Source: Oscillospiraceae bacterium (lineage in GTDB: Bacteria; Bacillota; Clostridia; Oscillospirales; Oscillospiraceae). Taken from it: a stretch of 53,063 bases of DNA. Location: positions 80,188 to 133,250 of the forward strand of contig JAGBEA010000048.1 in the NCBI GenBank assembly GCA_017937195.1. The letters run 5' to 3'. How positions within the stretch are numbered: the first letter of the stretch is position 1; each line of letters starts with the position of its first letter. This document shows, in pieces, positions 896 through 48,203 of the stretch. The translations under genes were made by a program, and so were the position numbers. Under the pieces are notes generated by a model that was not told where the DNA came from, made no database searches, and saw only the letters and a list, made by a program, of their open reading frames with translations.

Positions 896-1546
896 ATGGA
901 AAGCAGAAAACTGGAATTATTAAAGCAGATGGCAGCCGGTGTTGCGGCGCAGTTCGGCAGCAAGTGTGAGGTCGTGATCCATGAGGTGAACAGCAACCGG
1001 ATGGATCAGTCCATCGTCCATATTGAGAACGGACACGTGTCCGGCCGCAAGGTGGGTGATGGCGCATCCCGCATCGTGCTGGAGCAGCTGGAGAATCAGG
1101 AGCGTCAGCCTCAGGACCATCTGTGCTATCTCACCCGCACCCCCGACGGAAAGATTCTGAAATCCTCGTCACTGTATATCCGTAACCGCAAGGGTGTGGT
1201 CACGGGCATCTTTTCCATTAATTATGATGTTACTTCCATTTTAATGCTGCAGCAAAACGTCAACGAGATGCTCTCTACCCGCGACGATGACGAGGGCGAG
1301 CCGGAGAAGATCATCAACATCAACGATGTGCTCAACGAGCTGATCGAGCAGTCGGTGGCGCTGGTGGGCAAGCCGGTGGCGCTGATGAATAAGGATGATA
1401 AGGTCCGCGCCATCCAGTTCCTGAACGAGAGCGGCGCCTTCCTTGTGACCAAGTCCGGTGACAAAGTTGCCAAATATTTTGGCATCTCCAAGTATACACT
1501 TTATTCGTACATTGATTCTACAAAGCAGGAGGACAAGAAAAAATGA
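896..1546 (+). CDS. YheO/DauR-type PAS and helix-turn-helix transcriptional regulator
   Basis: This 216-residue protein has the YheO-like PAS domain in its N-terminal half (about residues 8-115; CEVVIHEV, then SSSLYIRN and GIFSINYDVT) and a C-terminal DauR-type helix-turn-helix (about 165-210; GAFLVTKSGDKVAKYFGISKYTLYSYI). Such proteins are DNA-binding regulators, often next to the catabolic genes they control; DauR regulates D-arginine use. It is first in an operon with two PLP enzymes and overlaps the next gene by 4 nt (ATGA). It is divergent from ygeY, so it is the natural candidate for regulating the purine-type cluster. The effector sensed by the PAS domain is unknown. Confidence 0.88.
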   Translation: MESRKLELLKQMAAGVAAQFGSKCEVVIHEVNSNRMDQSIVHIENGHVSGRKVGDGASRIVLEQLENQERQPQDHLCYLTRTPDGKILKSSSLYIRNRKGVVTGIFSINYDVTSILMLQQNVNEMLSTRDDDEGEPEKIININDVLNELIEQSVALVGKPVALMNKDDKVRAIQFLNESGAFLVTKSGDKVAKYFGISKYTLYSYIDSTKQEDKKK

Positions 1547-3018
1547 TCGATCTGTCTATCAACAAAGCGGGCCTTGCCCACAACATCGAAATCGCGAAAA
1601 AGAACAAGATCATCATCCCCACCATCGCCCAGATGCAGGATCCCTCTCTCATTCCGGAGAAGATCCTTGCCAAGCTGAGCACCACCGGTCTGTGGGATGT
1701 AGACCCTGTCAACCTGTTCCGCATTTCCTGGCACAATGAGGCCAAGGACAGCGGGGGTCTGTTCCAGGCTGTGCCCAACTATGTGGAGATCCCCAGTGAG
1801 CTGTCCGGCGTACCCTGCCGCATCATCGCCATGGCAGGTAAATGGTTCCCCACCGGCTGCCACAAGGTGGGCGCCTCCTTCGGGTGTCTTGCACCCCGTC
1901 TGGTGACCGGTCAGTTCGACGCTACGTATCACCACGCCGTGTGGCCCTCCACCGGTAACTACTGCCGCGGCGGCGCATTCAACTCCAAGCTCCTGGCCTG
2001 CGACAGCGTGGCCATCCTGCCGCAGGATATGTCCCGCGAGCGCTTTGAGTGGCTGCAGAGCATCGCCGGTCAGATCATTGCCACCCCCGGCTGTGAGTCC
2101 AACGTCAAGGAGATCTTTGATAAGACTTGGGAACTGAAGCAGGATCCCACCATGATGATCTTCAACCAGTTTGCCGAGATGGGCAACCCGCTGTGGCACT
2201 ATAATGTCACCGGCGTGGCTCTGGCGGATCTGTTCGAGGCCATCAAGAAGCCCGGCCAGAACTTTGCCGGCGCCTGCTTCACCTCCGGCTCTGCCGGCAC
2301 CATGTCCGCCGGCGACCTGCTGAAGGAGCGCTATCCCCGTTTGAAGCTGGCAGTGGGCGAGGCGCTGCAGTGCCCCACCATTCTGGATAACGGCTTCGGC
2401 GGTCACCGCATCGAGGGTATCGGCGATAAGCACATCCCTTGGGTGCATAATGTGAAGAACACCGATATGGCCATCGCCATCGACGATGAGGACAGCCAGC
2501 GCCTGCTGCGTCTGTTCAACACCGCTGACGGTCAGAAGTATCTGCGTGAGGAGCTGAAGCTGTCCGAGGAGCTGATCGAGAAGCTGACGTGGATGGGCAT
2601 CTCCGGTATCGCCAATGTGCTGTGCTGCATCAAGATGGCAAAGTACTATGAGCTGACCGAGAACGATGTGGTGGCAACGGTGCTGACCGACTCCGCCGCT
2701 ATGTACGGCTCCCGTGTCACCGAGCTCAACGAGATGCACGGCGCTTACAGCGTGGTGGAAGCCGCCAAGGATCACGCGCTGCATATGCTGGGGCTCAAGA
2801 CCGACAGTATGATCGAGCTGACCTACGCCGAGCGTAAGCGTGTCCATAACCTGAAGTACTACACTTGGGTGGAGCAGCAGGGTATGACCGCCGAGGATCT
2901 CAATGCCCAGTGGTACGATACCGCCGGCACTTGGGACGCCGTCCACGCGCAGGCCAAGGAACTGGATGAGCTGATCTGCCAGTTCAACGAGGAGACCGGC
3001 CTTTTGAAGGCACTGTAA
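1543..3018 (+). CDS. PLP-dependent enzyme, tryptophan-synthase-beta/cysteine-synthase fold (fold type II)
   Basis: This 491-residue protein has a TrpB-like PLP-lysine segment, PTGCHKVGAS, with Lys108 as the likely Schiff-base residue. A glycine-rich phosphate loop TSGSAGTMSAGD follows near residue 256. Such enzymes run beta-elimination or beta-replacement on amino acids. I do not recognise an exact characterised homologue. It is longer than cysteine synthase (about 310 residues) and lacks a TrpB neighbour set. The start ATG overlaps the regulator's stop (ATGA) behind AGGAGG at 1527-1532. Its place in a ygeY/ygfK/ssnA island suggests it acts on a diaminopropionate-like or other beta-substituted amino acid made in purine breakdown, where other bacteria carry ygeX; this is inference. 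Confidence 0.8.
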   Translation: MIDLSINKAGLAHNIEIAKKNKIIIPTIAQMQDPSLIPEKILAKLSTTGLWDVDPVNLFRISWHNEAKDSGGLFQAVPNYVEIPSELSGVPCRIIAMAGKWFPTGCHKVGASFGCLAPRLVTGQFDATYHHAVWPSTGNYCRGGAFNSKLLACDSVAILPQDMSRERFEWLQSIAGQIIATPGCESNVKEIFDKTWELKQDPTMMIFNQFAEMGNPLWHYNVTGVALADLFEAIKKPGQNFAGACFTSGSAGTMSAGDLLKERYPRLKLAVGEALQCPTILDNGFGGHRIEGIGDKHIPWVHNVKNTDMAIAIDDEDSQRLLRLFNTADGQKYLREELKLSEELIEKLTWMGISGIANVLCCIKMAKYYELTENDVVATVLTDSAAMYGSRVTELNEMHGAYSVVEAAKDHALHMLGLKTDSMIELTYAERKRVHNLKYYTWVEQQGMTAEDLNAQWYDTAGTWDAVHAQAKELDELICQFNEETGLLKAL

Positions 3019-3082: not shown

Positions 3083-4324
3083 ATGAAAAATGTAAAATAC
3101 GGCAAGTGTGTCCGCTGCGGCAAGACCTACGATGCCGTGCCCGACCTGACCAACTGCGAATGCGGCGGCATTCTGGAGATCGTCTACGACTATGAGTACA
3201 TCAAGACCGTGCTGACTAAGGAAAAGCTGGCGGCGCGTGAGAATCGCTCTATGTGGCGCTACCGCGAGCTGCTGCCCGTGGAGGAGGATACCCCCGATAC
3301 GCCTCTGCGTGTGGGCTGGAGTCCTCTTTATGAAGAACCGCGTCTGGCGGAAATGCTGGGCATCCGTAAGCTGTGGGTCAAGGACGACGGACAGAACCCC
3401 ACCGCCTCGCTGAAGGATCGTGCCAGCGCAATGGCCGTTGCCAAGGCGCTGGAGGCAGGCGCCAAGACCATCGCCTGCTCCTCCACCGGCAATGCCGCCT
3501 CCTCCTTGGCAGGCAACGCCGCTGCTGCGGGGCTCAAGACCTATATCTTCGTGCCTGAGCGCGCCCCCAAGGGCAAGGTGGCACAGCTGATGATCTTCGG
3601 CGCCAATGTGATCAGTGTCAAGGGCAACTATGAGGAGACCTTCAAGATGTCCGCCGCTGCCATCGACAAGTACGGCTGGTATAACCGCAATGCCGCCATC
3701 AACCCCTATTTGTCCGAGGGTAAGAAGACGGTCGCGCTGGAGATCGCCGAGCAGCTCAACTGGGAGATGCCGGATTATCTGGCCATCTCCGTGGGTGACG
3801 GCTGCACCATCGCCGGTGTGTGGAAGGGCTTGAAGGATCTCTATGCCATCGGCTTTATCGATAAGCTGCCCCGCCTCATCTCCGGTCAGTCCACCGGCTG
3901 CTGCCCCCTCAACCGCGCCATCCAGACCGGTGAGGATTGGTATCCCATGGAGGAGAACACCTTGGCCGACTCCATCGCCGTGGGCGTGCCCCGCAACGCC
4001 GATAAGGCGCTGATGGCGATTCGTGAATCCAATGGCATCGCCGTCAATGTCACCGACGAGGAGATCCTCGCCGCCCAGCGCCTGCTGGGTAAGACCTGCG
4101 GTGTGTTCGGTGAGCCTGCCGGCGTCACCGGCGCGGCAGCGCTGAAAAAGGCCTGCGAGCTGGGTCTCATCGAAAAGGATGCCACCGTGGTGTCTGTGGT
4201 CACCGGCAACGGGTTGAAGGATGTGGCCAACGCCATCGCGGCGGCAGGTGAGCCGCTGCATATCGAGCCGGATCTGGATGTGATGGTAAAAGGCTTTGCT
4301 GAGCGCGGCGTGACCGTGGAATGA
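3083..4324 (+). CDS. Threonine synthase-like PLP enzyme with N-terminal zinc ribbon
   Basis: This 413-residue protein starts with a zinc ribbon (Cys9, Cys12, Cys25, Cys27) followed by the threonine-synthase family linker CGGILEIVYDYE. The PLP lysine motif NPTASLKDR places Lys111 as the Schiff-base residue, and STGNAASSLAGN and SVGDGCTIAGV contact the cofactor. By sequence it would be called threonine synthase (O-phosphohomoserine to threonine). However, it sits as the third gene of the regulator operon inside a purine-degradation island, with no hom or thrB nearby. A lyase role on a diaminopropionate-type substrate, as for YgeX of the same fold, is therefore possible (inference). An AAAAGGGAG site precedes ATG 3083. 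Confidence 0.82.
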   Translation: MKNVKYGKCVRCGKTYDAVPDLTNCECGGILEIVYDYEYIKTVLTKEKLAARENRSMWRYRELLPVEEDTPDTPLRVGWSPLYEEPRLAEMLGIRKLWVKDDGQNPTASLKDRASAMAVAKALEAGAKTIACSSTGNAASSLAGNAAAAGLKTYIFVPERAPKGKVAQLMIFGANVISVKGNYEETFKMSAAAIDKYGWYNRNAAINPYLSEGKKTVALEIAEQLNWEMPDYLAISVGDGCTIAGVWKGLKDLYAIGFIDKLPRLISGQSTGCCPLNRAIQTGEDWYPMEENTLADSIAVGVPRNADKALMAIRESNGIAVNVTDEEILAAQRLLGKTCGVFGEPAGVTGAAALKKACELGLIEKDATVVSVVTGNGLKDVANAIAAAGEPLHIEPDLDVMVKGFAERGVTVE

Positions 4325-4406: not shown

Positions 4407-4913
4407 CTACGCGTCCACGGCGGGGGCTTCTTCAGCCGGTGCTTCTGCCTCAGGCGCAGGTTCTTCCGCAGCGGCAGCCACGGTGTCCACCACCTTCTCC
4501 GCGGCGATGGCGTCGGCCTTGCCGGCCTCATAAGCGGCATTCTTGGCATCCTCCAGCTCCTTGGCGTGGTCGGATTCCTTCTTGGCGGCCAGCTTTTCGG
4601 CGCGGCGCTTGCGGATCAGCTTTACTGCGGAGCGATAGCTCAGCACCACCACGATGGCGGCCGCGATGCCCAAGCCGATCCAGCCGGGCAGGCGGATCTT
4701 CCAGAAATCGTGGATGGTGAAATGCTCATACAGCATACCGAAATAGTACAGCGCGATGCCGCCGCCCAGGCAGATGATGGTCAGCAGCAGATCCAGCGCG
4801 GCGCGGATCTTGTGGCGCTTGCGCATCACAAAATAGCACACAAGGAAGGTCAGCGCAAGGAAAAACAGAGCCGGGGACTGGTTGAGCAGGATCGATTCAA
4901 GCGTTGCTTTCAT
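4407..4913 (-). CDS. Small membrane protein of unknown function, cotranscribed with hydantoinase
   Basis: This 168-residue protein is not recognised as a named family. It has three hydrophobic stretches (about residues 14-30, 40-58 and 76-92) separated by basic loops. These are followed by a charged, Ala/Glu/Lys-rich cytoplasmic tail (from about residue 100) ending in a low-complexity Ala-Glu-Pro repeat. It starts 36 nt after the hydantoinase stop with an AGAGGAAA ribosome site, so the two are probably one transcript. Three segments are few for a permease. A role in membrane anchoring or as a transporter accessory is speculation. Confidence 0.7.
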   Translation of the reverse strand: MKATLESILLNQSPALFFLALTFLVCYFVMRKRHKIRAALDLLLTIICLGGGIALYYFGMLYEHFTIHDFWKIRLPGWIGLGIAAAIVVVLSYRSAVKLIRKRRAEKLAAKKESDHAKELEDAKNAAYEAGKADAIAAEKVVDTVAAAAEEPAPEAEAPAEEAPAVDA

Positions 4914-4949: not shown

Positions 4950-6323
4950 TTACAGATTGCACTTGCCGCGTGGGATATACTTGCCGTTTGCGTGCGCCAG
5001 CACCGTGCCGTCGTCCACAGCCAGTTCGCCCCGCAGCCACACCTGTGCGATGCTGCCGCGGGTGATGAAGCCCTCATAGGGGGTGTAGCCTGCCCGCCCC
5101 ACCATCTCCTCGGCGCGCAGCATATGGTCAGCTTGCGGATCGTAGACCACGATGTCGGCGTCGCTGCCTGCGCGGATCGTACCCTTGCGCGGATACATTC
5201 CGTACAGCTTGGCAGGATTTTCGGACAGTACCTTGCACATCGTGCCAAGGGAGATGCGCCGCGTGGCAACACCTGCGGAGTAGAGCAGCTCACCGCGGGT
5301 CTCCACACCGGGCAGACCGCCGGGGATGGCGGTGAAATCGCCGCGCCCCCGCTCCTTCTGTTCCGTGGTGAAGCTGCAGTGATCGGTGGAAACGGTCTGG
5401 ATCTCGCCGCGCCGCAGCGCCGCCCACAGCACACGCTGGTCGGAGGGGGTGCGCAGGGGAGGGGCGCATACGTGCCGCGCCGCGTGGATCCAATCATCGC
5501 TGTCATAGGCGCTCTGCTCCAGCAGCAGATACTGCGGGCAGGTTTCCACATATACCTTCTGTCCCCGCCGGCGTGCATTCTCCACCTCGCGCAGGGCTGC
5601 GGTGCATGTCAGATGCACGATCACCACCGGTACATCCACCGCCTGCGCGATGCGCAGCAGCCGCGCCACTGCCTCCGCCTCCAGATAGTCGGGGCGCGTG
5701 CGGTAGTGGGAGCCTACGCCCATCGCACCGGCAGACTTTGCCTCTGCCGTCAACGCGTTGATCACGCCGCTGTTCTCGCAGTGCACGCCGCAGATGCCGC
5801 CCTTTTCCTTCAGCTTCTTCAGCGCGCGGTAGATGGTCTCGTCATCCAGCATCATCGCAGGATAGGTCATATACATCTTGAACGAGGAGATACCGGCGGC
5901 GTACATCTCGTCGATCTGCCGCTCAATGGTGTCGTTCCAGTCGTCGATGGTCATATGGAAGCCGTAGTCGCAGCAGCATTTGCCCTCGGCCTTCTGCCGC
6001 CACAGCGCAAGACCCTGCTGCAGCGTTTCGCCCTTGTTGGGGCAGGCGAAATCGATCACCGTGGTGGTGCCGCCCCGCAGCGCCGCCATAGAGCCGGAGG
6101 CGAAATCGTCGGCAGTGGTGGTGCCGGCAACATCCAGATCAAAATGGGTGTGTGCATCGATAAAACCAGGCATCAGCAGCATTCCGCTCACATCGATCAC
6201 CTGGGCATCTGCATCGTTGATGCAGCGCGCCACGGCGATGATCTTCTCGCCCTCCACCAGCACATCGGCGCGCTTGGTGCCGCGGCCGGATACTACCGTG
6301 CCGCCCTTGAACAGCCGTTTCAT
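4950..6323 (-). CDS. hydA: Dihydropyrimidinase / hydantoinase family amidohydrolase
   Basis: This 457-residue amidohydrolase (the usual size is about 460) has the cyclic-amidase metal set: His58 and His60 in DAHTHFD, the carboxylated Lys149 in SSFKMYM, His181 in GVHCEN, a His in VHLTC, and Asp in STDHCSF. The family opens hydantoin or dihydropyrimidine rings. In urate clusters the equivalent HyuA-type enzyme is thought to open a cyclic ureide intermediate. The start is ATG 6323: a GGGAGG site lies 7 nt upstream, whereas an in-frame TTG at 6329 would leave almost no spacer. It is followed by the membrane protein at 4913. Cytosolic zinc enzyme. Confidence 0.92.
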   Translation of the reverse strand: MKRLFKGGTVVSGRGTKRADVLVEGEKIIAVARCINDADAQVIDVSGMLLMPGFIDAHTHFDLDVAGTTTADDFASGSMAALRGGTTTVIDFACPNKGETLQQGLALWRQKAEGKCCCDYGFHMTIDDWNDTIERQIDEMYAAGISSFKMYMTYPAMMLDDETIYRALKKLKEKGGICGVHCENSGVINALTAEAKSAGAMGVGSHYRTRPDYLEAEAVARLLRIAQAVDVPVVIVHLTCTAALREVENARRRGQKVYVETCPQYLLLEQSAYDSDDWIHAARHVCAPPLRTPSDQRVLWAALRRGEIQTVSTDHCSFTTEQKERGRGDFTAIPGGLPGVETRGELLYSAGVATRRISLGTMCKVLSENPAKLYGMYPRKGTIRAGSDADIVVYDPQADHMLRAEEMVGRAGYTPYEGFITRGSIAQVWLRGELAVDDGTVLAHANGKYIPRGKCNL

Positions 6324-6357
6324 AGACAAACCTCCCTTTTTGTGGGATCGTTACTTT

Positions 6358-6451: not shown

Positions 6452-9403
6452 TTATAGATACAGATAGCTGTACTTGTCGCGGATGGTGACGATCAGCTTC
6501 TCCAGCTCCGCGGGCAGATCGTTGCTGCCGGCAAGATCGTACTCCTTCGGCTCGCCGAAGAGGCGCACGCGGACACGGTCGTGATCGAGGAACAGCACGC
6601 CTGCGTTGTTGGAGTCCACCATATCCTCTGCCGTCTGGAAGACGGTGAACTTATCGTGGCAGGGCTCGGAATCGTAGGGGCAGAACTGGGTGCAGTTGCC
6701 GCACTCGTTGCACATCTTATCCACGTGGATGATCTGATGTCTGCCATCTGCCATCACGATGGAGATGTTGGAGCGGTTGGGGCAGGAGTCCACACAGTTC
6801 TCACACACGGTGGAGCACTGCAGGCAGCGCTCACCCTCGCAGGTGATGCAGCTGCTGGTGGAGAGGATACCCTTCTTCTCGCAGGCGTCGGGCTTGGTGA
6901 TGTATGCCTGCTCGGGGATCTCATAGGTGTGCTTCTTGCCGATGACCGCCTCGGCAAAGCGTGCGGCATCCGCGATACCCTCCACCACCGTGGCAGGACC
7001 GCGGCGGGCATCGCCTGCGGCATAGACGCCTGCAATGTTGGTCTCAAAGGCGGGGCGACCCTTGCCGTCCAGCTCGATGCCGTTGGCGGCGAAGAGGGCG
7101 TCATCCACCTGCTCGCCCACGGCGGAGATCACCAGATCGCAGGGCAGCTCAAACAGCTCGCCGGTGGCTACGGGGCTGCGGCGACCGGAGGCATCCGCCT
7201 CGCCCAGCTTCATCTTCTCGCATACCAGCATACCGTTCTCCTGCCGCACGGGTGCGGAGAGCTCGGCAAACGCAACACCGTCAGCGATGGCCAGTGCCAG
7301 CTCGTGCTCGTCGGCGGGCATATACTTCTTGGTGCGGCGGTATACGATGGTCACATTCTCCGCGCCGCTGCGCTTGGCAAGGCGCGCAGCATCCATAGCG
7401 GTGTTGCCTGCGCCCACAACAGCCACATTGCCGCTCACGCGGATGCTGCCGTCCTTCACGCCCTTCATCCAGCCGATGGCACCGGCGATGTTGCCCTCGA
7501 TGCCCAGCTTGCCGGCCTTCCACGCGCCCACAGCGAAGAGGATGTGGGTGTAACCCATCTCCTTCAGTTCGGCAACGGAGGGGGCAGGTGCGCCGCACTT
7601 GACCTCCACGCCGTAGCGCTCCATCAGTGCGATGTCCTTAGCGATGGCCTCGTTGGTGATGCGGAAAGCGGGAATCACGTGGCGCGGCACGCCGCCGAGG
7701 CAGGATTCGCGCTCGAAAACGGTGGTCTCGATACCGGCGCGGCCAAGGAAGGTGGCGGCTGCGATGCCGGTAGGACCGCCGCCGATGATGGCGGCCTTCT
7801 TGCCCGCCACCTTTTCAGGCAGCTTGATGGATGCCATCAGCGCGCCGAAGCCGTTTTCAGCGGCCACCAGCTTGCTGTCGCGGATGCGGACAGATTCGTC
7901 GTAGAAATTACGGGAGCACTTGGTCTGGCAGCGATGTGCGCAGATGGTGCCGGTAATGAAGGGCAGAGGATTCTTCTCGGTGATGACCTGCAGCGCCGGA
8001 CCGTACAGACCCTTGCGCACCAGCTCCATATACTCGGGGATATCCTGGTCGATGGGGCAGCCGCCGCGGCAGGGTGCGATGAAGCAATCCATCCACGGCA
8101 CGCCGTCCTTATTTTTGCGGCTGGGCAGCGGCTTGATGGGCTTGAGGTGATGCACATCGCTGTGGCTGGCGGTGGACAGCTCGCAGATGGCCTGGGTGTC
8201 CGTGCCGTCAAAGGCGCGGAAGGGCAGGGCTTCCACCTTCTTTGCCATCTGGTGCAGGCGGTTGTAGCCGCCGGACTTGAGGATGGTGGTGGCCACGGTG
8301 ATGGGCCAGATACCGGCGGCAAACAGCTTGTCGCAGTTGAAATACTCGGCGCCGCCGGCAAAGGAGATACGCATCTTGCCGCCGAACTCGCGGGAGATGC
8401 GGTGGCACATTTCGATGGTCAGGGGGAAGAGGCTGCGTCCGGACATATACATCTCGTTGCCGGGCAGCTCGCCCCGGGTGGTGTCCACGGGGAAGGTGTT
8501 AGAGAGCTTCAGGCCGAACTCCACGCCCTTGCTGTCCGCCAGCGCCTGCAGGCGGTGGAACATAGGCACGGCATCCTTCCACTGGAGGTCTGCCTTGAAG
8601 TGGTGGTCATCAAAGACGATGTAGTCATAGCCCATAGAATCCAGCGTGCGCCGCGCCGTTTCATAGCCGAGGATGGTGGGATTGCACTTGACAAAGGTGT
8701 GCAGCCCCTTTTCGGTGATGAGGTAGGCGGCGATGCGCTCGATTTCATCGGGGGGACAGCCGTGGAGGGTGGACACAGTGACGCTGCGGGACACGCGGGG
8801 GCTGATAGAGTCGATGTAGTCGCGCTCGGCGGGGAACAGCTCCTTCAGCACGGCGATGCACTCGCCCCAAACAGCGGTGGTGGAGGCATCCATCATACCG
8901 CGCAGATAGGTGTCCACCTTCTCGCCCTTGATGCCCTCCAAATCGTAGCCCACGGACATATTGAACACGAAGCCATCGGGGTCGCCCAGACCGTAGACCT
9001 TGCTGATGACCTTCAGCGCGCACCACGCCTTGATGTACTCATCCAGCGCCTGCGGCACGGTCAGCTCAGTGGACCACTCCTGATTGTAGCCCTCATCATT
9101 GGCGAGGATGCAGGGGCGGGGCACGCAGGCGGCCAGCTCTGCGCCGTCCATCTTCTGCACGGTCTTTACCTCGAAGAAGCGTCCGCCTGCCACATAGGCG
9201 GCGATGATATTCTGTGCCAGCTGGCTGTTGGGACCTGCGGCAGGACCGAAGGGTGTCTCGATGCGCTCACCGAAGATGGGCAGGCTCTTGCCGCTGGGGC
9301 GATACACCTTGTGGATGCCGAAAATCTTGCCGTCACGGGCATATTCGGTGACCACCCAGTTCATCAAAGAGCGGAAGGGAATGGGATACATTTTCTCAGA
9401 CAT
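6452..9403 (-). CDS. ygfK: YgfK, putative iron-sulfur flavin oxidoreductase ('selenate reductase' subunit family)
   Basis: This 983-residue protein (E. coli YgfK is about 1030) has three parts. Residues 1-430 are a dihydroorotate/dihydropyrimidine-dehydrogenase-like barrel. Residues about 440-860 are a glutamate-synthase-small-subunit-like part with a Cys-rich entry (APCRGGCPIDQDIPEY), a FAD motif IIGGGPTGIAAA and an NAD(P) motif VVGAGNTAMDAA. The C-terminus has two ferredoxin-like Cys clusters (CITCEGERCLQCSTVC and CNECGNCTQFCPYD). The family is named for selenate reduction in E. coli, but it co-occurs with ssnA and ygeY, and in gut bacteria it is linked to anaerobic urate catabolism. Here it most likely reduces a purine-ring intermediate with electrons passed through FeS and flavin. 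Start ATG 9403 has an AAAGGAGC site and follows ssnA by 18 nt. Confidence 0.94.
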   Translation of the reverse strand: MSEKMYPIPFRSLMNWVVTEYARDGKIFGIHKVYRPSGKSLPIFGERIETPFGPAAGPNSQLAQNIIAAYVAGGRFFEVKTVQKMDGAELAACVPRPCILANDEGYNQEWSTELTVPQALDEYIKAWCALKVISKVYGLGDPDGFVFNMSVGYDLEGIKGEKVDTYLRGMMDASTTAVWGECIAVLKELFPAERDYIDSISPRVSRSVTVSTLHGCPPDEIERIAAYLITEKGLHTFVKCNPTILGYETARRTLDSMGYDYIVFDDHHFKADLQWKDAVPMFHRLQALADSKGVEFGLKLSNTFPVDTTRGELPGNEMYMSGRSLFPLTIEMCHRISREFGGKMRISFAGGAEYFNCDKLFAAGIWPITVATTILKSGGYNRLHQMAKKVEALPFRAFDGTDTQAICELSTASHSDVHHLKPIKPLPSRKNKDGVPWMDCFIAPCRGGCPIDQDIPEYMELVRKGLYGPALQVITEKNPLPFITGTICAHRCQTKCSRNFYDESVRIRDSKLVAAENGFGALMASIKLPEKVAGKKAAIIGGGPTGIAAATFLGRAGIETTVFERESCLGGVPRHVIPAFRITNEAIAKDIALMERYGVEVKCGAPAPSVAELKEMGYTHILFAVGAWKAGKLGIEGNIAGAIGWMKGVKDGSIRVSGNVAVVGAGNTAMDAARLAKRSGAENVTIVYRRTKKYMPADEHELALAIADGVAFAELSAPVRQENGMLVCEKMKLGEADASGRRSPVATGELFELPCDLVISAVGEQVDDALFAANGIELDGKGRPAFETNIAGVYAAGDARRGPATVVEGIADAARFAEAVIGKKHTYEIPEQAYITKPDACEKKGILSTSSCITCEGERCLQCSTVCENCVDSCPNRSNISIVMADGRHQIIHVDKMCNECGNCTQFCPYDSEPCHDKFTVFQTAEDMVDSNNAGVLFLDHDRVRVRLFGEPKEYDLAGSNDLPAELEKLIVTIRDKYSYLYL

Positions 9404-9421: not shown

Positions 9422-10768
9422 TTAATATACGCGGTTGTTGAGGCTGCCCCACAGCTTCTTGGAGGCCTCCAGAATGTGTGCGTTTTCGGCTTCCTCGTCG
9501 ATGCCCACCAGCTGACGGTCCAGCATCAAAAGCTTGCCGTTGGCGATGGTGGTCTGGCACTGGCGGCCCGTCATACCGAAAATCATATGACCGTCGATGT
9601 TCTCATCGGAGAAGGGGGTGAAGGGCTTGTAGTCCATCACGATGATGTCCGCCGCCGCGCCTGCCTTCAGCACACCCAGCTGGTGGGGGAAGTGGCGCGC
9701 GCCGATTTTGGCGTTGTTGCGGAACAGCATATCGGTGACCTCGCCCCAAGCCACGTTGGGCAGGCAGTTCTGGCTGCGCTGGGAGCACAGTGCCACCTTG
9801 AGGGACTCCAGCATATCGTTGGTGTAGGCGTCGGTGCCCATGCCCAGCAGGATGCCCCGCTTGTGCAGCTGCAGCACGGGGCAGATGCCGATGGCGTTGC
9901 CCATATTGGACTCGGGATTGTTGACCACCATAGTGTTGGTGTCGCGGATGATGTCCATCTCGGCGCTGTTGACGTGGATGCAGTGGCCGAGGATGGTCTT
10001 TTCACCCAAGATGCCGTGGTCCTGCAGGCGCTGCACGGGGCGGCGACCGTAGTTCTGCAGGCTGTCGTACACGTCGTTCATGCCCTCGGATACATGGATG
10101 TGATAGCCGGTGCGCCCGTTGTTGGCAGCCACCATCCGCTCAAAGGTCTTGTCGGAGATGGTGAAGAGGGCGTGACCGCCGAACATCGCCGCCAGCATGG
10201 GGTCGTTCTCCTTTTGGCAGTGGGTGATGAAGTCGGCGTTCTCCTGAATGCCCTGCAGGCACTTCTCCTCGCCGTCGCGGTCGGACACCTCATAGCACAG
10301 ACACGAGCGGATGCCGAAGCGCTTGGCACTCTCGGCAATGGTGAAGAGGGAGCCGGGGATCTCGCCGTAGGATGCGTGGTGGTCGAAGATGGTGGTGACG
10401 CCCTGCTTGATGCAGTCGATGTACAGCGCATCGGCGCTGGCGCGTGTGCCGTCCATCATCAGCTTGCGGTCGATGGCCCACCACGTGCCGTCCAGCACCT
10501 CATAGAAATTGGTGGGGTTGTTGCCCACGATGGAAAGACCCCGGGCAAGAGCGGAATAGATGTGGGTGTGGGCATTGATGAGTGCCGGCATGATCACGCC
10601 GCCCTTGGCATCGATGATCTCGGCATCGGGATATTTGGCGCGCAGCGCAGCTTCCTCGCCTACTTCCGTGATAAGGCTGCCCTCAAAGGCCACAGCGCCG
10701 CGCTCATAGTAGCCGCGACCGCCTTCGTCACGGGTGATAAGTTTACCGTTGGTGATCAGATACATCAT
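9422..10768 (-). CDS. ssnA: SsnA family putative aminohydrolase
   Basis: This 448-residue amidohydrolase has metal ligands in NAHTHIYS (His67, His69), HIHVSE, LGHCIHVN and GTDAYTND, the layout of the guanine deaminase/ATZ-TRZ group. SsnA is a conserved member of ygfK clusters and is implicated in anaerobic urate breakdown; the exact reaction is unproven. Two start codons are adjacent, ATG 10768 and ATG 10765. The AAAGGAGG site lies 4 nt before the first and 7 nt before the second, so the second may be used. It leads an operon with ygfK behind a promoter (10908-10936) and a structured, terminator-containing leader, which makes premature termination a likely control point. Confidence 0.93.
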   Translation of the reverse strand: MMYLITNGKLITRDEGGRGYYERGAVAFEGSLITEVGEEAALRAKYPDAEIIDAKGGVIMPALINAHTHIYSALARGLSIVGNNPTNFYEVLDGTWWAIDRKLMMDGTRASADALYIDCIKQGVTTIFDHHASYGEIPGSLFTIAESAKRFGIRSCLCYEVSDRDGEEKCLQGIQENADFITHCQKENDPMLAAMFGGHALFTISDKTFERMVAANNGRTGYHIHVSEGMNDVYDSLQNYGRRPVQRLQDHGILGEKTILGHCIHVNSAEMDIIRDTNTMVVNNPESNMGNAIGICPVLQLHKRGILLGMGTDAYTNDMLESLKVALCSQRSQNCLPNVAWGEVTDMLFRNNAKIGARHFPHQLGVLKAGAAADIIVMDYKPFTPFSDENIDGHMIFGMTGRQCQTTIANGKLLMLDRQLVGIDEEAENAHILEASKKLWGSLNNRVY

Positions 10769-10901
10769 TCATCCTCCTTTACCAGATAACAAAAAATGTT
10801 TCAAACCCCCATATGGGATTTGAAACACTCAAGCGCAAGCCGGAGTGATAGTTGCAGCCCGTGCGCGCAGCACTTCCTTACAGCTACCATTCTTGGATTG
10901 T
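10769..10901 (-). ncRNA. Structured 5' leader of ssnA-ygfK, candidate riboswitch/attenuator
   Basis: From the predicted start near 10901 the minus-strand leader folds into helix GTAGC/GCTGC enclosing a GTGC-TGCGC-GCAC hairpin, then CACTC/GAGTG, then an intrinsic terminator just before the ribosome site. The GAGTG strand shares one base with the terminator's 5' arm, the arrangement expected of a ligand-switched terminator. It lacks the purine, guanidine, TPP and T-box signatures I know. I recall a candidate RNA named after ssnA from comparative surveys but cannot verify identity. Confidence 0.6.
10791..10826 (-). terminator. Leader terminator upstream of ssnA
   Basis: Minus-strand arms GTTTCAAA/TTTGAAAC, extended by CCC/GGG around an ATAT loop, are followed by A and six T residues. 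It lies between promoter and start codon, so it can only act as an attenuator. Confidence 0.75.
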
Positions 10902-10907
10902 GTCTAT

Positions 10908-10936
10908 ATTGTACAGTAAAACGGCGCGGATTGCAA
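10908..10936 (-). promoter_or_regulatory. Promoter of ssnA-ygfK
   Basis: TTGCAA (10931-10936) is followed by an exact 17-bp spacer and TACAAT (10908-10913) on the minus strand. TACAATATAGACA at 10901-10913 matches the ygeY promoter segment in 11 of 13 positions. Confidence 0.75.
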
Positions 10937-10958
10937 CAGAAAATTATGGTGAACTTAC

Positions 10959-10990
10959 AAAAAATAAGGCGGCACCGCGTGCCGCCTTAT
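10959..10990 (-). terminator. Terminator of upp
   Basis: A 12-bp perfect stem (10964-10975 / 10979-10990) with a 3-nt loop is followed by a T run on the minus strand. Confidence 0.85.
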
Positions 10991-11007
10991 GGGAAAGTTC
11001 AAATCGC

Positions 11008-11643
11008 TTACTTGGTGCCGAAGATACGGTCGCCGGCATCGCCCAGACCGGGCACGATGTAGCCGCGCTCATTGAGGTGGCTGTCCACTGCGCCGCAGTA
11101 GATATCCACGTCGGGATGCTCGTCCTGCACCGCCTTGACGCCTTCGGGGGCTGCTACCAGCACCATCAGCTTGATGTGCTTGCAGCCACGGTTCTTCATC
11201 TCGGTGACAGCTGCCACAGCGCTGCCGCCGGTGGCCAGCATGGGGTCGACGATGATGATGTCGCGCTCGGCGATATCCTTGGGCATCTTGGAGAAGTACA
11301 CATGGGGCTCCAGCGTCTCCTCATCGCGGTACATACCGATGTGACCCACGCGGGCGGAGGGCACCATACGCAGCACGCCGTCCACCAGACCCAGACCTGC
11401 GCGCAGGATGGGCACAACGGCGAACTTCTTACCTGCCAGCGTAGGCATCTCGGCCTTGCACAGAGGGGTCTCGATCTCCTTGGTGGTCAGGGGCAGATCG
11501 CGGGTCGCCTCATAGGTGATCAGCATACCGATCTCGCTGACCAGCTCGCGGAAATCCTTGACGCTGGTGTTCTTGTCGCGCATAATGGTCAGCTTGTGGG
11601 CCACCAGAGGATGATCCATAACGTGTACTTTTTCGTTAAACAT
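11008..11643 (-). CDS. upp: Uracil phosphoribosyltransferase
   Basis: This 211-residue protein matches the usual UPRT size (about 209). It makes UMP from uracil and PRPP in the cytosol. Visible motifs are HPLVAHKLT at the N-terminus, [12 protein letters not shown], the PRPP-binding loop [14 protein letters not shown], and the uracil-binding [13 protein letters not shown] at the C-terminus. The start is ATG 11643 with AAAAGGAG upstream; an upstream in-frame ATG at 11682 would add residues not typical of the family. It is probably the last gene of a tsaE-tsaB-upp transcript and is followed by a strong terminator. Pyrimidine salvage fits next to the nucleobase island, but upp is also a common housekeeping gene. 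Confidence 0.96.
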
Positions 11644-36950: not shown

Positions 36951-37211
36951 GTATGTGAAAAGCGAAGATGGGGAGAAAAGCAGAGATTCCTGCCTGAAGA
37001 GAGCCGGCGTTCGGTGCAAGCCGGTGGAGGAGCTTTGTGATACTGGCCCCGTAGCTTTCTGTCTGAACTTGCAGTAGGGCAGAACGGCGCGCCCCGTTAC
37101 GGCGCAGCCCCACGAGGGCACTGAGGGTCTGCAGGCAACTGCCGGCCGTATCAGGGTGGTACCGCGATCTGATCGCCCCTGACTTCTTTTGGGAAGTCAG
37201 GGGCGTTTTTT
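36951..37211 (+). ncRNA. T-box riboswitch (tRNA-Leu sensing)
   Basis: The antiterminator carries the T-box motif AGGGTGGTACCGCG (37153-37166). Stem I contains the AGAGAG element and the GGTGCAAGCC distal loop partner. Its base pairs GGGG with CCCC (37047-37050), and the internal loop GATACTGG places a CTG (Leu) specifier at 37043-37045. Uncharged tRNA-Leu should favour read-through into leuS. The 36898-37248 gap is fully accounted for by promoter, T-box and terminator. Confidence 0.93.
37174..37211 (+). terminator. T-box terminator
   Basis: Stem CGCCCCTGACTTC/GAAGTCAGGGGCG followed by TTTTTT competes with the T-box antiterminator. Confidence 0.92.
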
Positions 37212-48079: not shown

Positions 48080-48090
48080 AAAGCTACAAT

Positions 48091-48183
48091 CCAAGGGGCG
48101 CTGGCGCAAGCTGGCTGAGATGAGACATATCGCTGTCCTGTCCCTCGAACCTGATCCGGGTAATGCCGGCGTAGGAATGCGAT
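48091..48183 (+). ncRNA. TPP riboswitch (THI element)
   Basis: Conserved TPP-sensing blocks occur in order: GGGGCGCTGG, GCTGGCTGAGATGAGA, CCTCGAACCTGATCCGGGTA and ATGCCGGCGTAGGAA. It lies between a consensus promoter and thiT and is followed by a terminator hairpin, so it should switch off thiT when thiamine pyrophosphate is plentiful. Confidence 0.96.
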
Positions 48184-48203
48184 CATATAGTATGTACCTT
48201 CGT

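Follow-up and report, generated by a model that had tools for sequence, protein, structure and literature searches.

The ssnA gene of an Oscillospiraceae bacterium (GenBank assembly GCA_017937195.1, contig JAGBEA010000048.1) is preceded on the minus strand by a structured leader, which raises the question of whether this RNA is a genetic switch and, if so, what it would respond to. A first-pass annotation of the window (the whole stretch of 53,063 nucleotides analysed here) had proposed a candidate riboswitch controlling ssnA and ygfK, had assigned it to no recognised class, and had recommended an Rfam covariance-model search that included any ssnA-named motif. In that search, positions 10893-10846 (minus strand) matched Rfam family RF03031, named ssnA RNA, from end to end (Table 1), and this was the sole RF03031 match in the genome. 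The match exceeds the gathering score and therefore places the leader in a catalogued cis-regulatory family. Thus, the proposal of a cis-regulatory and probably riboswitch-like element was supported, whereas its description as unclassified was not. Judged by its sequence, the window element is genuine and conserved, and it belongs to a known family of orphan RNAs. When all other Rfam classes were searched at E values up to 5 in 10700-11050, only three chance-like matches below cut-off accompanied RF03031. The founding paper of ssnA RNA is reportedly that of Weinberg et al. in 2017; no paper on the motif was found by listings and titles in the open-access literature searched, nor was a ligand found in that literature.

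Layout of the ssnA leader

The promoter, the leader of approximately 130 nt, the helices and the terminator before the ssnA ribosome-binding site, as described in the first-pass annotation, were all located on the minus strand in 10936-10769 (Table 1). The nested helices given there as GTAGC/GCTGC around GTGC-TGCGC-GCAC are P1 (with one extra pair and one pair short) and P2 of the Rfam model. Both stems can form in the window copy, and the full-length alignment to positions 1-48 contains no non-standard pair. The GAGTG strand, which had been said to touch the 5' arm of the terminator, does contact it, but the wording was too weak, since this strand is the base of that arm. The motif end at 10846 is separated from the ssnA start at 10768 by 77 nt, and folding showed that the window leader was more stable than 200 of 200 dinucleotide shuffles (z = -3.1).

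Judging from the promoter-like sequence, transcription would start near 10901. The promoter match is weak on its own because one match at the 9/12 level was found in the 1 kb searched and 0.7 were expected from shuffling. Among relatives, 57 of 106 distinct upstream regions scored 9 or more as a promoter, compared with 10% of single-base shuffles, and the commonest distance from the -10 element to the motif was 14 nt in upstream regions scoring 8 or more. This promoter-like layout upstream of the motif gives no indication of a transcription start downstream of the terminator, which the annotation had named as an observation that would speak against a switch.

Table 1. Features of the ssnA leader and the genes behind it (all on the minus strand; window coordinates).
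Feature	Coordinates	Parts	Evidence
Promoter, sigma-70-type	10908..10936	TTGCAA 10936-10931, 17 nt spacer, TACAAT 10913-10908	matches 9/12
ssnA RNA core, putative aptamer	10846..10893	RF03031 positions 1-48	cmscan 69.3 bits, gathering 37.3, E 2.4e-17 over window
Alternative helix P1'	10846..10889	UGGUAG 10889-10884 with CUAUCA 10851-10846 (one G-U)	minimum-energy fold
Stem P1	10855..10886	UAGCU 10886-10882 with GGCUG 10859-10855	Rfam structure line
Conserved internal loop	10874..10881	GUAAGGAA, between P1 and P2	Rfam structure line
Stem P2	10861..10873	GUGC 10873-10870 with GCAC 10864-10861	Rfam structure line
Putative antiterminator hairpin	10826..10847	CACUC 10847-10843 with GAGUG 10830-10826	read from sequence; outside Rfam model
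Intrinsic terminator	10791..10830	stem 10830-10794 (16 pairs), six-T run 10796-10791	-20.4 kcal/mol
Ribosome-binding site of ssnA	10773..10780	AAAGGAGG	read from sequence
ssnA, aminohydrolase of reductive urate degradation	9422..10768		NF005540 611.5 bits, TIGR03314 540 bits, both above cut-off
ygfK, flavoenzyme family reducing yanthine	6452..9403		TIGR03315 1272.4 bits, cut-off 835.3; function according to PMC12507026
hyuA-like dihydropyrimidinase/hydantoinase	4950..6329		TIGR02033 561 bits, cut-off 393.25; 39% identity to E. coli HyuA

Occurrence and conservation of the core

A scan of the bacterial family found the motif in 110 of 400 genomes (103 above cut-off), representing 29 of 106 genera, an order scan matched 9 of 295 genomes, all from one bacterial family, and a class scan matched 6 of 391 genomes at E 0.001, only the present genome being above cut-off. 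Scans of more than 40 genomes used stricter filters and lost weak matches; therefore, absence in the large scans is no proof. The five class-scan matches outside the family (5 of 391, 23-26 bits, below cut-off) were set aside as likely chance: they lacked the core pattern, and no homologues of eight window proteins, including those of ssnA, ygfK and hyuA, were found in the 7-8 kb around them. Full SsnA (TIGR03314 above cut-off) was found in 127 of the 400 family genomes, 25 of them without a motif match; 102 genomes had both, 8 the motif only, and 265 neither. Of these 25, two with high-scoring SsnA were inspected (L214, L215), and neither contained a core pattern or an Rfam match at E up to 1. 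Many of the best 80 SsnA loci were labelled Oscillospiraceae or Oscillibacter, and others Clostridia, Clostridiales, Ruminococcaceae or Bacillota only.

By the core pattern, 111 of the 114 family-scan copies (92 distinct) could be aligned; L110, L112 and L114 did not match it and were left out. The consensus was RGCUGNAAnGNAGUGY(3-4)GCRCACGGGCU, and positions 10, 12, 13, 15, 16, 18, 20-23, 28, 29, 31, 32 and 34-36 were invariant in the 92 distinct cores, an invariance that is partly imposed because the alignment pattern itself fixes some positions. The inner four pairs of P1 were standard in 91 to 92 of the 92, the outermost pair 8-39 in 71, and pair 7-40, which the first-pass annotation had counted, in 40. 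Pair 9-38 of P1 was A-U in 61, G-U in 27 and G-C in 3 cores; pair 24-30 of P2 was C-G in 81, U-A in 8 and U-G in 3. A lack of helix conservation in homologous leaders, which had been foreseen as an objection, was not observed: the core was kept in 111 of 114 copies, and its near-invariance leaves only thin covariation.

The minimum-energy fold of the window leader contained P1', which the annotation had overlooked, and not Rfam P1. A CUAYC-like strand was present within 18 nt after GGGCU, at a variable distance, in 63 of the 111 leaders, and in 61 of these 63 (exceptions, L046 and L113) it was fully complementary to positions 5-10 with G-U pairs allowed. The complementary pairs included one UGGUAG/CUACCA in addition to UGAUAG/CUAUCA. 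Because nucleotides 8-10 are common to both helices, P1 and P1' are mutually exclusive.

Terminators, computed coupling and the proposed switching model

Terminators were scored with a second scorer, which replaced a first finder that had missed several. One was scored between the promoter side and the gene in 102 of the 111 leaders, and the earlier finder gave one in 6 of the other 9. We grouped the expression platforms into types A-D, a grouping of our own. In type A, that of the window, GAGUG at the terminator base can pair with an upstream CACUC or with a CAUUU adjoining the T run; a subgroup (L044, L045, L049, L051, L054, L063, L071) carries the upstream strand CACCUAUC against arms of the AGGUG/GGGUG type. 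In type B, the terminator stem uses P1/P2 nucleotides, as observed in 15 of the 102 leaders from nine genera (L007, L008, L066, L068, L075, L084, L085, L093, L099, L102, L105, L106, L107, L109, L111); therefore, aptamer and terminator exclude each other in these 15. Type C leaders (e.g. L003-L006, L009, L073, L076, L079) carry a strand downstream of GGGCU that pairs with the 5' arm of the terminator, and a type C-like duplex was better than 95% of 50 shuffles in 14 of 23 distinct non-A leaders. The terminator of type D, found in nfnAB-type leaders, consists of the P1 5' strand and the 3' flank (L091, L104 and L108 by the terminator finder); in L218 and L220 the P1 5' strand was read by eye in the terminator.

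Coupling was computed as the free energy of six terminator base pairs with versus without P1 and P2 imposed (ViennaRNA constraints). In the window, the modelled probability of the terminator base fell from 0.33 in the free leader to 0.0022 with the aptamer imposed, a coupling of 3.1 kcal/mol, which was reached by 1 of 200 linker shuffles (mean 0.11, SD 0.63); in the model without ligand, the aptamer fold was seldom adopted (P = 0.0007). Of the 87 leaders with non-overlapping terminators, 42 showed antagonism above 0.5 kcal/mol, 42 lay between -0.5 and +0.5, and three (L046, L059, L092) had the opposite sign. Among 81 distinct leaders with linkers of at least 6 nt, the mean coupling was 0.69 versus -0.04 in 972 shuffles; it exceeded 0.5 in 40 leaders versus 7.5% of shuffles and was below -0.5 in three versus 7.3%, although p-values from such related sequences overstate their independence. 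The CACTC (10847-10843) and GAGTG (10830-10826) strands pointed out by the annotation are present, but their hairpin was not stronger than chance in the window (15 of 50 linker shuffles were as good), and in relatives only 9 of 58 type A leaders had a duplex of this kind that was stronger than 95% of shuffles. Alternative exclusive pairings that would link the aptamer to the platform were thus found, solely at the level of sequence and computation.

The overlap of aptamer and terminator in 15 of 102 leaders, together with the coupling computed for the window, points to an ON switch by antitermination. We therefore consider it probable that this ssnA RNA copy is a riboswitch that controls the ssnA-ygfK-hyuA operon for reductive uric acid degradation by ligand-activated transcription antitermination. 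In the unliganded leader, CUAUCA would pair with the 5' strand of P1 as P1', and the GAGUG strand would complete the terminator. With ligand bound, the core would adopt P1 and P2 and free CUAUCAC, and the freed CACUC would then capture GAGUG from the terminator base, so that transcription would enter ssnA. The pairing suggests that the upper terminator stem could form despite the antiterminator. Ligand binding and the direction of switching in vivo are what we infer from this arrangement.

Instead of a ligand aptamer, the core might be a site to which an antiterminator protein binds, with BglG/LicT-type or ANTAR-type logic. It is short (approximately 29 nt) and near-invariant, like a lineage-specific protein target; in the order (295 genomes) and class (391 genomes) scans, its matches above cut-off were confined to one bacterial family; and a protein-bound core would give the same antitermination geometry. 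However, no protein with a CAT_RBD domain (PF03123) was found in the genome, which is 92% complete, whereas 4 of 14 control genomes matched, and the linked regulator is a YheO-like protein with PAS and HTH domains, a DNA-binding type. A search for ANTAR proteins gave no match in the genome, but neither did it in the control genomes, so that it weighs neither for nor against this reading. We regard a protein target as unlikely. An OFF switch, in which ligand binding would favour the terminator in a product feedback, appears quite improbable. The negative computed coupling in three of the 87 leaders and the OFF action of the known xanthine/uric acid NMT1 riboswitch (PMC7373994) would agree with it, but aptamer and terminator stems have nucleotides in common in 15 leaders, 42 of the 87 others are antagonistic, and the regulated genes break purine down rather than synthesise it.

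The leader could also be constitutive, a terminator joined to an RNA element with another function such as processing or stability, as the 42 of 87 non-overlapping leaders without clear computed coupling might suggest. The presence of a terminator in 102 of 111 leaders, the aptamer-overlapping stems in nine genera and a coupling that exceeds the shuffled controls make this very improbable. Hardly credible is a leader-peptide attenuator, for which an ATG at 10890 would open a frame of 29 codons that crosses the core and reaches the terminator. In the window this frame is open, but no ribosome site precedes that ATG in 12 leaders inspected by eye, and only 41 of 94 distinct copies have ATG, GTG or TTG at that place. 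Of the 94 copies, 78 have an apical loop of 3 nt and 16 one of 4 nt, and the linker length varies, so the peptide frame is not kept, and the leader peptide was rejected on this variation.

Operon, candidate ligand and related systems

The reductive urate pathway was published in 2025 (PMC12507026). According to the part of that paper drawn on here, XdhD converts urate to yanthine, YgfK together with SsnA then opens the ring, and the later steps fall to HyuA, YgeW/UacY, YgeY and YgeX; its authors consider the regulation of urate-metabolism genes across gut bacteria poorly understood. A review, in the portion used here, includes ygfK and ssnA among the urate-induced genes of gut bacteria (PMC12990295). 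The genome under study appears to encode a set for this pathway, comprising SsnA, YgfK, HyuA, an XdhD-like protein (40% identity over residues 176-952 of 956) and a YgeY-like protein (64-65% identity) that straddles the window start. A ThrC-like gene (3083-4324) had 25% identity to E. coli YgeX over 206 residues, and in three extra loci (L216, L219, L221) a relative is located before the hyuA copy.

The first pathway gene downstream of the 114 family-scan copies was ssnA in 105, hyuA in 1 and an nfnAB-like pair in 3; the contig ended in 3, and two low-scoring copies (L112, L114) had none. ygfK followed ssnA in many loci, and hyuA, or ygeY and ygeW, in a few, some places being repeated across collections. 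In one genus, the motif was found in 8 of 11 genomes, five of them with two or three copies. There, three genomes (G621, G1042, G1044) carry a copy before hyuA, and five (G647, G556, G621, G1042, G1044; loci L218 1101-3334, L220, L108, L104, L091) carry one before an nfnAB-like pair. The proteins of this pair matched the PRK06222 and GltA models above cut-off; the name NfnAB and a role in reductant supply are our interpretation. Their position behind ssnA RNA in five genomes suggests that urate reduction and reductant supply are regulated together. ssnA and hyuA are genes of reductive urate degradation, and the nfnAB-like pair would fit as reductant supply. The gene after the hyuA copy in L216 had a match below cut-off to a molybdenum cofactor cytidylyltransferase model.

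Several neighbouring features were also recorded. The YheO-like PAS and HTH regulator lies at 896-1546 (+), and in 31 of 114 copies the ssnA leader is flanked by a divergently oriented homologue (1-1.5 kb upstream examined), which makes a second layer of control likely. Between this regulator and the ThrC-like gene in the urate cluster, a PLP-fold protein (1543-3018, +) gave only matches below cut-off, to cysteine synthase and PALP models, and is a candidate diaminopropionate-type lyase. No Pfam or NCBIfam model matched the small protein after hyuA (4407-4913, -), a homologue of which lies behind hyuA in six loci, a count that includes at least one place twice. Elsewhere in the window, a T-box leader (36956-37183, +; 104.4 bits, gathering 93) and a TPP riboswitch (48084-48194, +; 58.2 bits, just above gathering 54.3) were detected.

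A purine-breakdown ligand fits the regulon, and our best guess is that the ligand is most likely urate or yanthine (2,8-dioxopurine). A wider reading, which we advance tentatively as possible rather than probable, is that the anaerobic urate pathway has in ssnA RNA its first riboswitch class: sensing urate or yanthine, the RNA would switch on the ring-opening enzymes, the hydantoinase and the NADPH-supplying NfnAB-like enzyme via four antitermination platforms that differ in build but share a single near-invariant core. The element was already catalogued; its ON geometry, the defined regulon and the short ligand list make this orphan RNA directly testable, and it could yield a urate or yanthine sensor for gut bacteria.

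With RF03031, the window leader shares the core sequence, the two stems and the place before ssnA; the Rfam structure line covers positions 1-48 and these two stems, and P1', the antiterminator and the terminator are absent from it. Guanine/adenine and other purine riboswitches have a three-way-junction architecture, and terminator-based control of purine genes is common among them; the leader had no Rfam match to these classes at E up to 5. The RAT antiterminator hairpins of BglG/LicT systems are alike in being short hairpins with an asymmetric loop that overlap a terminator, and in their ON logic, but they are bound by proteins of the kind that the CAT_RBD search did not find in this genome. 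When 10700-11050 was searched at E up to 5, the NMT1 motif, the xanthine/uric acid riboswitch, gave no covariance-model match. In the part of its description drawn on here, it resembles ssnA RNA in sensing oxidised purines, adjoining purine degradation genes and having a small hairpin aptamer with a conserved bulge, whereas it differs in being an OFF switch of Proteobacteria that likely acts via translation initiation (PMC7373994).
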